From Halanaerobium salsuginis (lineage in GTDB: Bacteria > Bacillota > Halanaerobiia > Halanaerobiales > Halanaerobiaceae), in assembly GCF_900114545.1 (NCBI RefSeq), contig NZ_FOTI01000021.1, forward strand, positions 1 through 53,206: a stretch of 53,206 nucleotides of DNA, read 5' to 3'. Position numbers and translations under genes: made by a program. Below are positions 2,535 to 6,508 of this stretch, piece after piece. Position 1 is the first letter of the stretch; each line of letters opens with the position of its first letter. The notes beneath the pieces were generated by a model. That model made no database searches. It saw nothing but the letters and a program-made list of their open reading frames with translations, and was not told where the DNA came from.

Positions 2535-2545
2535 TATTTACAAAA
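2535..2545. repeat. Left target-site duplication of the IS4-type element
   Basis: An 11-bp direct repeat TATTTACAAAA, matched exactly at 4039-4049. Duplications of 10-12 bp are typical of some IS4-family groups. Confidence 0.85.
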
Positions 2546-2589
2546 AAGACTTTCCCCATTTTTTAAAATAGCAAAAACTATCCTTACTG

Positions 2590-3852
2590 TCACAAGGGTA
2601 AAGAAAGCCTTAATATCTTTTGTGATCGTCGTTTTTTGTAATAACTCTTTAAAAAAGTAGCTATTCCAGTATAGGATTTAGACAGTATTTCCTTGATTCC
2701 ATCAGCTAATGCATAGTAATCAAAGTCTGGAAGATTATAGATTCTTTCTGAAACTTTCTTAACTATAATTCTTAGTTTTGTCTTTCGTTTTTTATCTGAA
2801 AATAAAGCTAAAAATCCTATAGTTATTGATAAAATTAAGTCTAAATTTCTAATTCTTTTTATTGATCTAACTCTGAAATTTTCTGAATTAAATTTTTGCT
2901 TTTTGAATCTGAAATATTCTTCTATTTTCCATCTTCTAATATATGCTTTTAAAATTGCCAGTGTAAGTTTTTTGGCATCAGGTTTTAAATTGCTAATTAA
3001 CAACATTGGTTTTTTGCCTAAACCTCTAATAATCACAAGAGTTAGTTTTTTATCTTTTAATGCAGGTAATTTAATCGGTGCATAGCTAAATTTTAAGTGT
3101 CTCTCTTTATTCTTTTTATTTTTATAATGATAGGCATATTTACCCTTGTAAAAAGCAGCTACCTTTTCTATATTTACACTCTTACCTTTATAGATAACAT
3201 TACGTTTTTTTGTAGCTCTAATTACAAAATCTTTATTGCCCTTAGTAAAGTATTCATAATACATGTTGGCGTCATAGCCTCTATCAAGGGCATAGATACC
3301 CTTTTTGCCAAAATGTTTTTCTACAAAATCTAGTCCGTTTAAAGCTTCAATATTTCGGCTTTTAAATCCTTTTTCCAGACTTGAATAGATACGAGAATAT
3401 ATTTCAATAGGCAATTCTTTGTTTTCAGTTAAAGCAGCAATTTCAAAAGTATCATAACCTTTTTCAGTTTCACCAGTACTGCCATCTCTAACCCTATCAA
3501 GCAATTCTAATTCATAGCTGTGAGGCTTAACTAAATCTGATTTGTCACAGCAAAAAACAGTATTATCATTAACGTGAGGTTTTAATTCATTTATATATTT
3601 TCCAATCAAGTCTTCCTGTTCATCAAAATTTTCAAGATTTCTGGATAATCTTTCAATAGTTTTTTTTAGCAATATGTCTTCTTTTAAAGCACGAGAAATC
3701 TCACTTAAAAGAACTGATTGAGAATTCAAAAAGCCATAAATCATCTGAGTAATGAACTTAGATTTTGGTTTTGACAATTTTTTAGTAATTTTTTTAGAGA
3801 AATTACTTACTTTTCGTTTCATTTCATAGATAAATCTGGTATAATTAGTCAC
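2590..3852 (-). CDS. IS4-family DDE transposase
   Basis: 420 residues. An RNase H-like DDE core is visible: first Asp in VFCCDKSDLVKP (near residue 102), second Asp in ALDRGYDANMYYEYF (near 193), and the Glu in a YREK-like signature YIRRWKIEEYFRFKK (near 313). The protein is very Lys/Arg rich at the N terminus, as expected for end binding. Start is GTG at 3852. Its SD AAGGAG lies inside the 3' arm of a 22-bp hairpin, so translation from read-through mRNA should be poor. The frame is unbroken. Subgroup assignment within IS4 is tentative; the DDE family is firm. Confidence 0.9.
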   Translation of the reverse strand: MTNYTRFIYEMKRKVSNFSKKITKKLSKPKSKFITQMIYGFLNSQSVLLSEISRALKEDILLKKTIERLSRNLENFDEQEDLIGKYINELKPHVNDNTVFCCDKSDLVKPHSYELELLDRVRDGSTGETEKGYDTFEIAALTENKELPIEIYSRIYSSLEKGFKSRNIEALNGLDFVEKHFGKKGIYALDRGYDANMYYEYFTKGNKDFVIRATKKRNVIYKGKSVNIEKVAAFYKGKYAYHYKNKKNKERHLKFSYAPIKLPALKDKKLTLVIIRGLGKKPMLLISNLKPDAKKLTLAILKAYIRRWKIEEYFRFKKQKFNSENFRVRSIKRIRNLDLILSITIGFLALFSDKKRKTKLRIIVKKVSERIYNLPDFDYYALADGIKEILSKSYTGIATFLKSYYKKRRSQKILRLSLPL

Positions 3853-3923
3853 GGTGAAACAACTCCTTTTTGGTGTTTTTTGTCTGTAAACTAATTATAC
3901 CAAAAACAGGAGCTTGTTTCACC
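3853..3923 (-). promoter_or_regulatory. Hairpin sequestering the transposase ribosome-binding site, with internal -10
   Basis: On the minus strand the 5' arm (3923-3899) and 3' arm (3874-3853) are complementary over 22 bp with a 3-nt bulge. The 3' arm holds AAAAAGGAG, and the GTG start follows at once. The loop contains TATAAT (3895-3900). A transcript started there, near 3888, would lack the 5' arm and leave the SD free. A transcript reading in from outside would fold and hide it. Confidence 0.75.
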
Positions 3924-3937
3924 TTTTTTACGTAATC

Positions 3938-3999
3938 TGTGGATAATCTATTTTAAGAGTTTCTAAGAGTTAATTATCCACAATTTTGCCTGTTGATAA
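3938..3999. other. Cluster of DnaA-box-like sequences inside the IS
   Basis: Two exact TTATCCACA words in opposite orientation (3938-3946 as TGTGGATAA, and 3974-3982). A one-mismatch copy sits at 3991-3999 (TGTTGATAA). All lie between the terminal repeat and the transposase promoter. Confidence 0.5.
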
Positions 4000-4038
4000 C
4001 TTTGAGTTTTTGCTATTTTAAAAAATGGGGAAACTCCT

Positions 4039-4049
4039 TATTTACAAAA
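4039..4049. repeat. Right target-site duplication of the IS4-type element
   Basis: Exact second copy of TATTTACAAAA. It contains the TAA stop of the symporter gene (4042-4044), so the insertion occurred at the very end of that gene without changing the protein. Confidence 0.85.
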
Positions 4050-5553
4050 TGTTTTTTTGCTGACATTCAGTTTTTAAATAACCGATAAATTGTTCTGCTT
4101 TTTCTTGAGGAGCTGTTGTAAATAAACTAATTATAATAAAGCTAAACAAACTAATCAGCAAAGTCCAGATTCCTGCCCCTAATCCGAAAGGATGCCAACC
4201 ACTAAACTGTAAATAAAGAGCGGTGAAAGAACCCAATAAAATACTGCTTAAAGAACCAGCAGCAGTAGCTGATTTCCAATAAAAAGCCCCGAAAATTGAA
4301 GGCACAACTACTAGAAGCCCAACTGAAGCAGCTACTGAAAGAGCAGCAATTAAATCCAGTTCTTGAATCGCAAAAAAGAATCCTAGTAAAGCTATAACAA
4401 AGATTACAATTCGGGCAATTTTTAGCTCCTGATGGTCTTTTTTTAGTCCAAATTTACGCTCTTTTACAGCCGGCTGTGCTGATTGATCTTTTTTGAATAA
4501 GTCCCGCACTACTAATGAGGCAAGTGTTAACATAATAGAATCAATAGTAGAAATTGCCGCTGCTGTTATTCCTACCATAGCTATCAAAGATAAAAGTGTT
4601 GGCACATATTCTGATGCCAGTAGAGCAGGAGTCGCAAGATCAGAGTTTTCTAAATCCGGGATCAATAATAGAGCTGAAAATCCCCAGATAACTGAAACTA
4701 GAGTATAAATAAAGCCAAAAGCTAAAAATCCTTTAATCATTGTTTTCATCGCTTTTAAATCTCGTGGAATAAAAAGACGCTGGCTAACCTGAGGATTAGA
4801 AATTGAAAAGAAAAACCAGGGTAAACTTAAACCTAAAAAAGTTTTAAAATTAAAAAAACCAGGGCCGGGCACAGTCAAAATTTGGCCTGAATGAGTACTT
4901 AATTGATTGAAAAAACTAATAAATCCTCCTAAATGATGATAAATAACATAAAATAAAATTAAAATACTAACAGTTATCATAATTAAAGACTGTAAAGAAT
5001 CAGTCCAGGTTACAGACTTCATACCAGCAATTAATACCCAGGCTATGGCAAGTAAAACAGCAATGATAACTCCTGTTAAAAAAGGAATGCTACCTCCTGA
5101 AAGTCCACTCAATAGATAGCCAACTCCCATCAATTGTACAGCTAAATATGGAATTAAAAAAATACAAGCTGAAAAAGATGCAGCAACTCCTATCCAATTA
5201 TTTTGATAACGATCAGCCAACATTTCATAAGGAGAAACATAATTATTTTTTTTACCAATTAGCCAGAAACGAGGACCAAAAAAAGCAACTAACGATAGAC
5301 CAGAAAGATAAACTAATTCAAAACCAAGTGCACCCACTCCTCCCGAGTAAGTAAAACCGGCCAGACCAATCATCATAAAAGCACTGTAGGTAGTTGCACT
5401 ATAAGATAAAGCAGCAATAATACCACTTGTATTCCGATTATTCAAAAAATATTCAATTGCACCTTTTTCCATTCCAGAACGAGCCTTAAACGCAACAATA
5501 AAACCAAGTATCATATAAATTAAAATTGCCAGATATAAATATGTAGTTGACAT
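4042..5553 (-). CDS. Sodium:solute symporter (SSS family), substrate unproven
   Basis: A 503-residue polytopic membrane protein with about 13 hydrophobic segments, beginning MSTTYLYLAILIYMILGF and typical of the SSS (LeuT-fold) family in length. FLNNRNTSGIIAALSYSATTYSAFMMIGLAG (residues about 36-66) is the conserved TM1-TM2 sodium-binding region. Later helices carry GMKSVTWTDSLQ and NPQVSQRLF, which resemble PanF-like members. It follows a 2-TM small protein by 4 bp, suggesting a two-gene transport unit. An upstream CTGTAAAGACA word is shared with the niaR promoter region. I infer NiaR control and so a possible NAD-precursor substrate; pantothenate or other solutes remain alternatives. Confidence 0.85.
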   Translation of the reverse strand: MSTTYLYLAILIYMILGFIVAFKARSGMEKGAIEYFLNNRNTSGIIAALSYSATTYSAFMMIGLAGFTYSGGVGALGFELVYLSGLSLVAFFGPRFWLIGKKNNYVSPYEMLADRYQNNWIGVAASFSACIFLIPYLAVQLMGVGYLLSGLSGGSIPFLTGVIIAVLLAIAWVLIAGMKSVTWTDSLQSLIMITVSILILFYVIYHHLGGFISFFNQLSTHSGQILTVPGPGFFNFKTFLGLSLPWFFFSISNPQVSQRLFIPRDLKAMKTMIKGFLAFGFIYTLVSVIWGFSALLLIPDLENSDLATPALLASEYVPTLLSLIAMVGITAAAISTIDSIMLTLASLVVRDLFKKDQSAQPAVKERKFGLKKDHQELKIARIVIFVIALLGFFFAIQELDLIAALSVAASVGLLVVVPSIFGAFYWKSATAAGSLSSILLGSFTALYLQFSGWHPFGLGAGIWTLLISLFSFIIISLFTTAPQEKAEQFIGYLKTECQQKNIL

Positions 5554-5557
5554 GACA

Positions 5558-5755
5558 TTATTCCCTCCAATAAGTAGTAATCTTAATTGTAAGTAAAATA
5601 ACTAATAGAGCAAAAATTGTCCAATATAAAAAACTTCCCCCAAAAATATTAATAGAACTAAGCAGTGTATAAGGTATAATAAAAGCAGATAAAACAAGTA
5701 AAAGAATCAAAGTAACAAATAAAAAACGTAGTTTTTTTAATTTTTTTTCTGACAT
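5558..5755 (-). CDS. Small two-TM membrane protein, likely symporter partner
   Basis: About 65 residues: a basic N terminus (SEKKLKKLR), a hydrophobic helix at about 10-32, a short loop, and a second helix at about 40-60 (FLYWTIFALLVILLTIK), ending TTYWRE. I do not recognise a named family with certainty. Small 2-TM proteins of the DUF3311/DUF997 kind are often encoded just before SSS symporters, and the YWTIFALL stretch resembles them. The 4-bp gap to the symporter implies co-translation. ATG at 5755 has better SD spacing from GGAGG than the adjacent ATG at 5758. Confidence 0.7.
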   Translation of the reverse strand: MSEKKLKKLRFLFVTLILLLVLSAFIIPYTLLSSINIFGGSFLYWTIFALLVILLTIKITTYWRE

Positions 5756-5862
5756 CATATTTCCTCCTGATTGAATTCAATTAACAAAACTTAATAATAT
5801 TTCTACTACAGCCCAGTACAAGTTTAAAAGTTATTTTTATCTTTACATATTAATTTTACAGG

Positions 5863-5873
5863 TGTCTTTACAG
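5863..5873 (-). promoter_or_regulatory. Candidate NiaR operator upstream of the symporter pair
   Basis: The minus strand reads CTGTAAAGACA, identical to the plus-strand word at 6498-6508 in the niaR promoter. It is followed by CCTGTAAA, so TGTAAA recurs at an 11-bp interval. It lies about 105 bp upstream of the small membrane gene. The exact promoter here is uncertain. Confidence 0.45.
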
Positions 5874-5920
5874 TAAGTATATAAATAAAGTAAATAAGCA
5901 TAATTAATTTATAATCTTAA

Positions 5921-6442
5921 TTAATCAGTCAGCAAGTACCCTTTATTTCCCAATTCTGTTTTTATTTTCTCTAAAACTTGCTCATTAACTGCTTCAATAG
6001 TATGAAGATGAACACCTTCTGTAAGTACGGAAAGTAAAGATGCATCATTTGATTGATAATTTTTTATGAAATTATTAATATCTTCTTGATTACTAATCAA
6101 TAAATTACCGCTTAATTCTCCATAAATTGGATGTTCAACTTTAACATCTATAATTCTACCACCATATTCGATAATAGTATTCAATTCATCTCTTAAAGCA
6201 GGCCCATCATCATGTTGGCAGGCAATTGAAATTCTAACAGTAGGTAAACGCAAATTCTTTTCATATAAATACCCTTGTGATGTCGCTATTATTTCTTCAC
6301 CTGCGGCTCTCAATAAAGCAATATCCTGGACAATAACCTGCCTGCTAACTTGAAATTCTTCAGCAAGTCTAGAACCAACTATAGGCTCTGCTGATTTTTT
6401 AAGACATTCTAATAAACTTTTTCTGCGCTGGTTAGCTTTAAT
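5921..6442 (-). CDS. niaR: NiaR-type transcriptional repressor of NAD biosynthesis (3H domain)
   Basis: About 173 residues. An N-terminal winged helix (RRKSLLECLKKSAEPIVGSRLAEEFQVSRQ, about 5-60) is followed by the 3H ligand-binding domain. Its three conserved His regions are visible: ACQHDDGP, KVEHPIYGELSG and GVHLHTIEA. NiaR family members sense niacin and repress its synthesis or uptake. No ATG, GTG or TTG lies between the in-frame TAA and the helix-turn-helix. The best start is ATT at 6442, 8 nt after GGAGG. A later TTG at 6313 would delete the DNA-binding domain. Its own promoter overlaps an operator-like word, suggesting autoregulation. Confidence 0.88.
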   Translation of the reverse strand: MKANQRRKSLLECLKKSAEPIVGSRLAEEFQVSRQVIVQDIALLRAAGEEIIATSQGYLYEKNLRLPTVRISIACQHDDGPALRDELNTIIEYGGRIIDVKVEHPIYGELSGNLLISNQEDINNFIKNYQSNDASLLSVLTEGVHLHTIEAVNEQVLEKIKTELGNKGYLLTD

Positions 6443-6475
6443 TTTAATTTCCTCCTTTCCAGATTATTATTCTAT

Positions 6476-6508
6476 ATTTTATCATCTGTCCTGTCATCTG
6501 TAAAGACA
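6476..6508 (-). promoter_or_regulatory. niaR promoter overlapping a candidate NiaR operator
   Basis: TTTACA (6499-6504), 17-bp spacer, TAAAAT (6476-6481). The -35 box lies inside TGTCTTTACAG (6498-6508), the word also found upstream of the symporter pair. The spacer adds ACAGATGACAGGACAG repeats. This fits repression by occlusion of RNA polymerase. Confidence 0.65.

Follow-up and report, generated by a model that had tools for sequence, protein, structure and literature searches.

A predicted sodium-coupled nicotinate symporter under NiaR control in Halanaerobium salsuginis

At the left end of the 53-kb stretch of Halanaerobium salsuginis DNA analyzed here (the window), three genes on the minus strand encode the niacin-responsive repressor NiaR, a small two-helix membrane protein (TM2), and a member of the sodium:solute symporter (SSS) family. 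The question raised by this locus is which solute the TM2–SSS pair carries. Membrane proteins that are regulated by NiaR and that have been proposed or shown to import niacin are NiaP (MFS), NiaX, and NiaY (PMC5343564, PMC6593275). A survey from 2019 named only these three families of vitamin B3 carriers, called the field incomplete, and reported that they covered only 25% of the predicted B3 auxotrophs among gut genomes (PMC6593275). A first-pass annotation of the window pointed out that known niacin carriers belong to other families. It also proposed a NiaR-controlled sodium symporter for an NAD precursor. The evidence presented below, which comes from operators, the conserved pairing with niaR, an operon with nadABC, and nicotinate-catabolic (nic) clusters, supports this proposal. 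We estimate a probability of roughly 85% that TM2–SSS is a Na+-coupled nicotinate importer that is repressed by nicotinate-bound NiaR.

The features of the locus are listed in Table 1. As the first-pass annotation described, the symporter and its partner lie just downstream of niaR, and only 4 nt separate the 3′ end of the TM2 gene from the SSS start. An IS4-type element (2542–4042; transposase gene 2590–3852) with 38-bp inverted repeats (2542–2579 and 4005–4042) is inserted directly behind the symporter stop codon, and the symporter C terminus still matches its relatives. Elsewhere in the window, a T-box leader (2233–2474) lies ahead of pheA, and a T-box-like leader (∼950–1160) that is not reported at the gathering score precedes a DAHP synthase gene.

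Table 1. Features of the niaR–TM2–SSS locus, in window coordinates
Feature	Position	Strand	Basis or remark
SSS symporter gene, 503 aa	4042..5553	−	PF00474, E 1.2e-36; predicted nicotinate:Na+ symporter
TM2 membrane protein, 66 aa, two helices; presumed accessory subunit	5558..5758	−	No Pfam/NCBIfam family
Further half-site copy near TM2–SSS operator	5838–5848		
NiaR operator of TM2–SSS, TGTAAAGACA-CC-TGTAAAATTA	5851..5872	−	Sequence; relatives with equal layout
niaR, niacin-responsive repressor, 173 aa	5921..6442	−	HTH_11 + 3H; probable ATT start 6442–6440
niaR ribosome binding site AAGGAGG	6451..6457	−	Sequence
niaR promoter: −35 TTTACA, 17-nt spacer, −10 TAAAAT	6476..6504	−	Consensus match
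NiaR operator of niaR, TGTCTTTACA-GA-TGACAGGACA	6487..6508	−	Overlaps −35 and spacer; kept in congeners

The repressor carries an HTH_11 domain (PF08279, 54 bits) and a 3H domain (PF02829, 114 bits), and it aligns over its full length with the NiaR protein of Bacillus halodurans (7cv0; E 1.9e-41). The metal and niacin residues of the latter protein are His83, Glu91, His150, and His152 (PMC7713382), and all four are kept in the window protein when the two are aligned. The niacin pocket is likewise kept, except that M88 is replaced by L and M134 by Y. The protein therefore resembles the NiaR proteins of B. halodurans and Thermotoga maritima in its domains and ligand residues, and its operator is of type I, as in Bacillus. 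In contrast to those systems, strong noncoding operators were found in the window genome only before niaR and the symporter unit.

The first-pass annotation observed that one short word occurs upstream of both units and overlaps the niaR −35 element. Exact copies of CTGTAAAGACA are indeed present at 5863–5873 (minus strand) and 6498–6508 (plus strand), and the −35 element of the best sigma-70-like promoter for niaR occupies positions 6504–6499, with the −10 element ending at 6476. Frequent occurrence of the word throughout the genome had been named as grounds for dismissing the proposal, but the whole 2.99-Mb genome holds only three copies, the third of which resides within a penicillin-binding-protein gene. 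Because two of these three copies fall in two intergenic regions that are 635 bp apart, their placement is not due to chance. The word contains TGTAAAGACA, which is a type I NiaR box. The consensus of this operator type is TGT-N4-ACA (PMC7713382), and it is found in both target promoters. Both operators closely resemble the PpnuC site of Streptococcus pneumoniae, TTTTACTGTAAAGACAGTTGAC, which has been proven by mutation (PMC5343564), and the corresponding sites in Halanaerobium congeners read TTTTACTGTAAAGACAGCTGTAAAG. In front of TM2–SSS, a second copy of the box (TGTAAAATTA) begins 2 bp further on, and congeners have an identical tandem layout. At niaR, the −35 element is covered by one box and the spacer is occupied by a further box-like element, an arrangement that fits autorepression.

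When the motif model was applied to the H. salsuginis genome, the two promoters and one match in a transketolase-like gene were recovered, followed by background; there was no further strong NiaR-box match outside of coding sequence. The match in the transketolase-like gene (G000:C58:20600) was rejected as a regulatory site because it is located inside the gene, and a match in genome G382 was rejected because it lies inside a coding frame. The NiaR protein of this organism thus seems to be dedicated to its own gene and to the symporter.

No in-frame ATG, GTG, or TTG codon precedes the HTH domain of the window niaR, and an AAGGAGG sequence is positioned 8 nt upstream of an ATT codon. For these two reasons, the ATT is probably the true start codon. 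Use of ATT seems to be common to Halanaerobium (the window and loci L004–L009), whereas the start codon at this position is ATG or GTG in other Halanaerobiales.

A Pfam search with the SSS protein yields only SSF matches, so the protein is not a member of the MFS family to which NiaP belongs. Its predicted structure (mean pLDDT 72) is matched by Foldseek to SGLT2, SiaT, and SMCT1 (7sl9). Residues A53, A332, S335, and T336 align with the Na2-site residues A53, A337, S340, and T341 of Escherichia coli PutP, and the Na2-site residues are invariant or nearly so in 36 members of the symporter family. Transport by this protein is predicted from its sequence to be coupled to Na+. In a maximum-likelihood tree, the symporter family stands apart from PanF, PutP, and ActP (support 100/99), and nic-linked proteins from Proteobacteria are nested within it (support 88/82). 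Human SMCT1 (SLC5A8) is an SSS carrier that takes nicotinate among a broad range of monocarboxylates. It shares the SSS fold with the window protein but is eukaryotic, has no NiaR, and is only ∼18% identical in the structural match.

The small partner TM2 matches no Pfam or NCBIfam family, including Pfam DUF997. Small partner proteins are conserved ahead of the symporter in Bacillota and Proteobacteria, and they carry the motif (I/V)P(Y/F)...G(A/S)FL(F/Y)W. The constant position of the gene and this conserved core suggest that TM2 may be a working subunit of the symporter. Like NiaP, NiaX, and NiaY, the TM2–SSS pair consists of NiaR-regulated membrane proteins, but it differs from them in its SSS family membership, its Na2 site, and its two-helix partner.

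To evaluate conservation of the locus, 38 whole genomes of Halanaerobiales and a sample of 398 genomes of the phylum were scanned. The order niaR–TM2–SSS occurs in all nine Halanaerobiales loci that were retrieved by protein similarity. Half of the genomes of the order (19 of 38) encode the symporter, and niaR adjoins it in at least 16 of these 19. Exceptions are one congener (G227) without a 3H protein that keeps the box, and one genome (G398) in which the symporter is a fragment (L151) whose neighbors cannot be judged. The box before TM2–SSS in the former (L016, L102) is perfect, and therefore either the loss of niaR is recent or a different regulator recognizes this site. In Halanaerobium congolense (L008; G405 contig C22), the niaR–TM2–SSS unit is tandemly duplicated.

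The symporter is found in 19 of the 398 genomes of the phylum sample. In distant families, niaR lies beside TM2–SSS either upstream and codirectional (f40, f45) or divergent (f98, f126). Inherited gene order alone can hardly explain a pairing that occurs in both orientations. The linkage of niaR and symporter is thus conserved across Halanaerobiales and in distant Bacillota, as would be expected from the first-pass proposal. We also conducted a held-out test of the operator, for which a weight matrix derived from Halanaerobiales sites only was applied to 15 distant TM2–SSS upstream regions and to 200 shuffles of each. Nine of these promoters score 20–25 bits, a value reached by 0 of 200 shuffles in each case, whereas the other six (L013, L024–L028) score like shuffles and have no box. 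The distribution is clearly two-peaked, and the symporter family therefore comprises members that NiaR controls and members that are free of NiaR. Four of the six genomes without a box retain NadA. Two NiaR-free copies from Bacillota (L025, L026) adjoin larE, a gene for synthesis of the nickel-pincer cofactor, which is made from nicotinate adenine dinucleotide.

A direct connection with NAD synthesis is evident in two congeners (G406, G408), where the order is niaR–[NiaR box]–TM2–SSS–nadA–nadB–nadC and nadA starts 33 bp downstream of the symporter. In G406, the products assigned as NadA, NadB, and NadC score above the corresponding NCBIfam cut-offs. A second NadA paralog is encoded behind nadABC in two Halanaerobium species (L153, 7460–8386; L154, 2963–3874). 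Where members of the class do not have the symporter, niaR directly precedes nadA, and in another genome (G202) niaR–TM2–SSS is followed by a 33-aa nadA remnant. The H. salsuginis genome yields no NadA match and no full-length NadC match. Together, these states suggest insertion of the symporter between niaR and nadABC, followed in some lines by loss of the nad genes. Given that NadA and full-length NadC are not detected, nicotinate uptake is probably essential for H. salsuginis. Its genome contains a PncB-like gene (L090) that scores 208 bits, which is below the NCBIfam cut-off of 378. The Pfam family PF04095 (PncB) has no match in any of 29 genomes; these species use another type of PncB.

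Within the order, 3 of the 19 genomes with the symporter and 5 of the 19 without it encode NadA, indicating that the symporter does not track the loss of de novo synthesis at this level. In the phylum sample, NadA is encoded by 5 of 19 symporter-bearing genomes vs. 213 of 379 others (Fisher p 0.016), and by 1 of 14 in the NiaR-linked subset (p 4e-4), a grouping that was made after the data had been seen. Since the effect is missing within the order, the absence of NadA was set aside as a main argument for the role of the symporter.

A protein search of plasmids revealed relatives in marine Proteobacteria with ∼53% identity. TM2–SSS relatives reside in nic clusters of five genera (Sagittula, Pannonibacter, Pseudosulfitobacter, Thioclava, and Halomonas). 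In the first four, a 60- to 62-aa partner is encoded directly upstream of the symporter, and the clusters include a molybdopterin hydroxylase, MarR and TetR regulators, an alpha/beta hydrolase, and an M29-like "leucyl aminopeptidase" (which carries no name in Pannonibacter). Enzymes of the maleate isomerase and isochorismatase types are found in three of these four clusters, and the gene set in Halomonas is similar. Comparison with solved enzymes identifies proteins of Pseudosulfitobacter as NicX (2,5-dihydroxypyridine 5,6-dioxygenase, 305 bits) and NicE (maleate isomerase, 402 bits) and a Halomonas protein as NicC (6-hydroxynicotinate 3-monooxygenase, 581 bits), all of them enzymes of the aerobic nicotinate pathway. 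The nic clusters of Pseudomonas contain NicT, an MFS protein; the marine clusters are also nicotinate-catabolic but have an SSS protein with a small partner.

Control by NiaR does not by itself fix the vitamer, because NiaR of S. pneumoniae regulates the riboside transporter gene pnuC (PMC5343564). TM2–SSS might accordingly carry nicotinamide, nicotinamide riboside, or quinolinate under the same control. We consider this improbable, however, given that the nic clusters begin from nicotinate and that symporter-bearing genomes have PncB-type enzymes, which use nicotinate; most of these genomes also have no NadC, which argues against quinolinate in particular. Among NAD precursors, the class named in the first-pass proposal, nicotinate is thus the most likely substrate, and we favor it over nicotinamide.

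Two other readings place the substrate outside of the B3 vitamers. A Sulfitobacter relative adjoins protocatechuate (pca) genes, and aroF or aroA lies near some copies, as might be seen if TM2–SSS were a general symporter for aromatic compounds or monocarboxylates and its association with NAD genes were secondary. This is very unlikely, since a single substrate is indicated by the five nic clusters, by the operon with nadABC, and by NiaR operators in several distant families, and the neighboring pheA in the window has its own T-box leader. The same nadABC and nic linkages make it unlikely that an unrelated solute is carried independently of NiaR, which is the outcome that the first-pass annotation regarded as fatal to its proposal. 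More improbable still is a pantothenate symporter of the PanF type that NiaR has come to regulate. Among NCBIfam models, PanF gives the SSS protein its highest score, the E. coli Na+/pantothenate symporter PanF is similarly encoded behind a small membrane protein (YhdT), and H. salsuginis has no PanB. However, the score (TIGR02119, 155.3 bits) falls far below the equivalog cut-off of 328.05, the two symporters are only 26% identical and occupy separate clades, and BLAST gives no alignment of TM2 with YhdT. Moreover, PanB is present in 12 of 19 symporter-bearing genomes, and the linkage seen is to nadABC and nic genes, that is, to NAD rather than CoA, with none seen to pan genes.

If TM2–SSS is a nicotinate importer, its regulation and function can be envisioned as follows. 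When nicotinate is plentiful, NiaR would bind it at the metal site of the 3H domain and occupy the TGT-N4-ACA operators, thereby turning off niaR and the TM2–SSS unit. When nicotinate is scarce, NiaR would release the DNA and the symporter would be made. The inward Na+ gradient, which is large in the habitat of this halophile, could then drive nicotinate uptake through TM2–SSS, and the PncB-like phosphoribosyltransferase would channel the nicotinate into NAD. Both repression by niacin at this locus and transport of nicotinate by TM2–SSS are predictions made from sequence comparisons.

More broadly, we consider it likely that this two-component system, composed of a two-helix subunit and a Na+ symporter, represents a fourth family of bacterial B3 importers. 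Bacillota would use it for NAD salvage controlled by NiaR, and marine Proteobacteria would use it to catabolize nicotinate; the niaR–TM2–SSS–nadABC order of two Halanaerobium species would be an intermediate state that can still be seen. No bacterial SSS carrier for niacin is described in the literature that we searched, which did not include the 2008 paper on the NiaR regulon (PMC2330245); that paper may already predict this symporter. Both the superfamily and the regulator are already known; what is new is their pairing, which would define a new B3 carrier family if confirmed. Knowledge of how bacteria take up B3 has an acknowledged gap (PMC6593275), and members of this family are now labeled merely "sodium:solute symporter." If the assignment is true, B3 uptake could be annotated by sequence in Halanaerobiales, in other Bacillota, and in marine nicotinate degraders.
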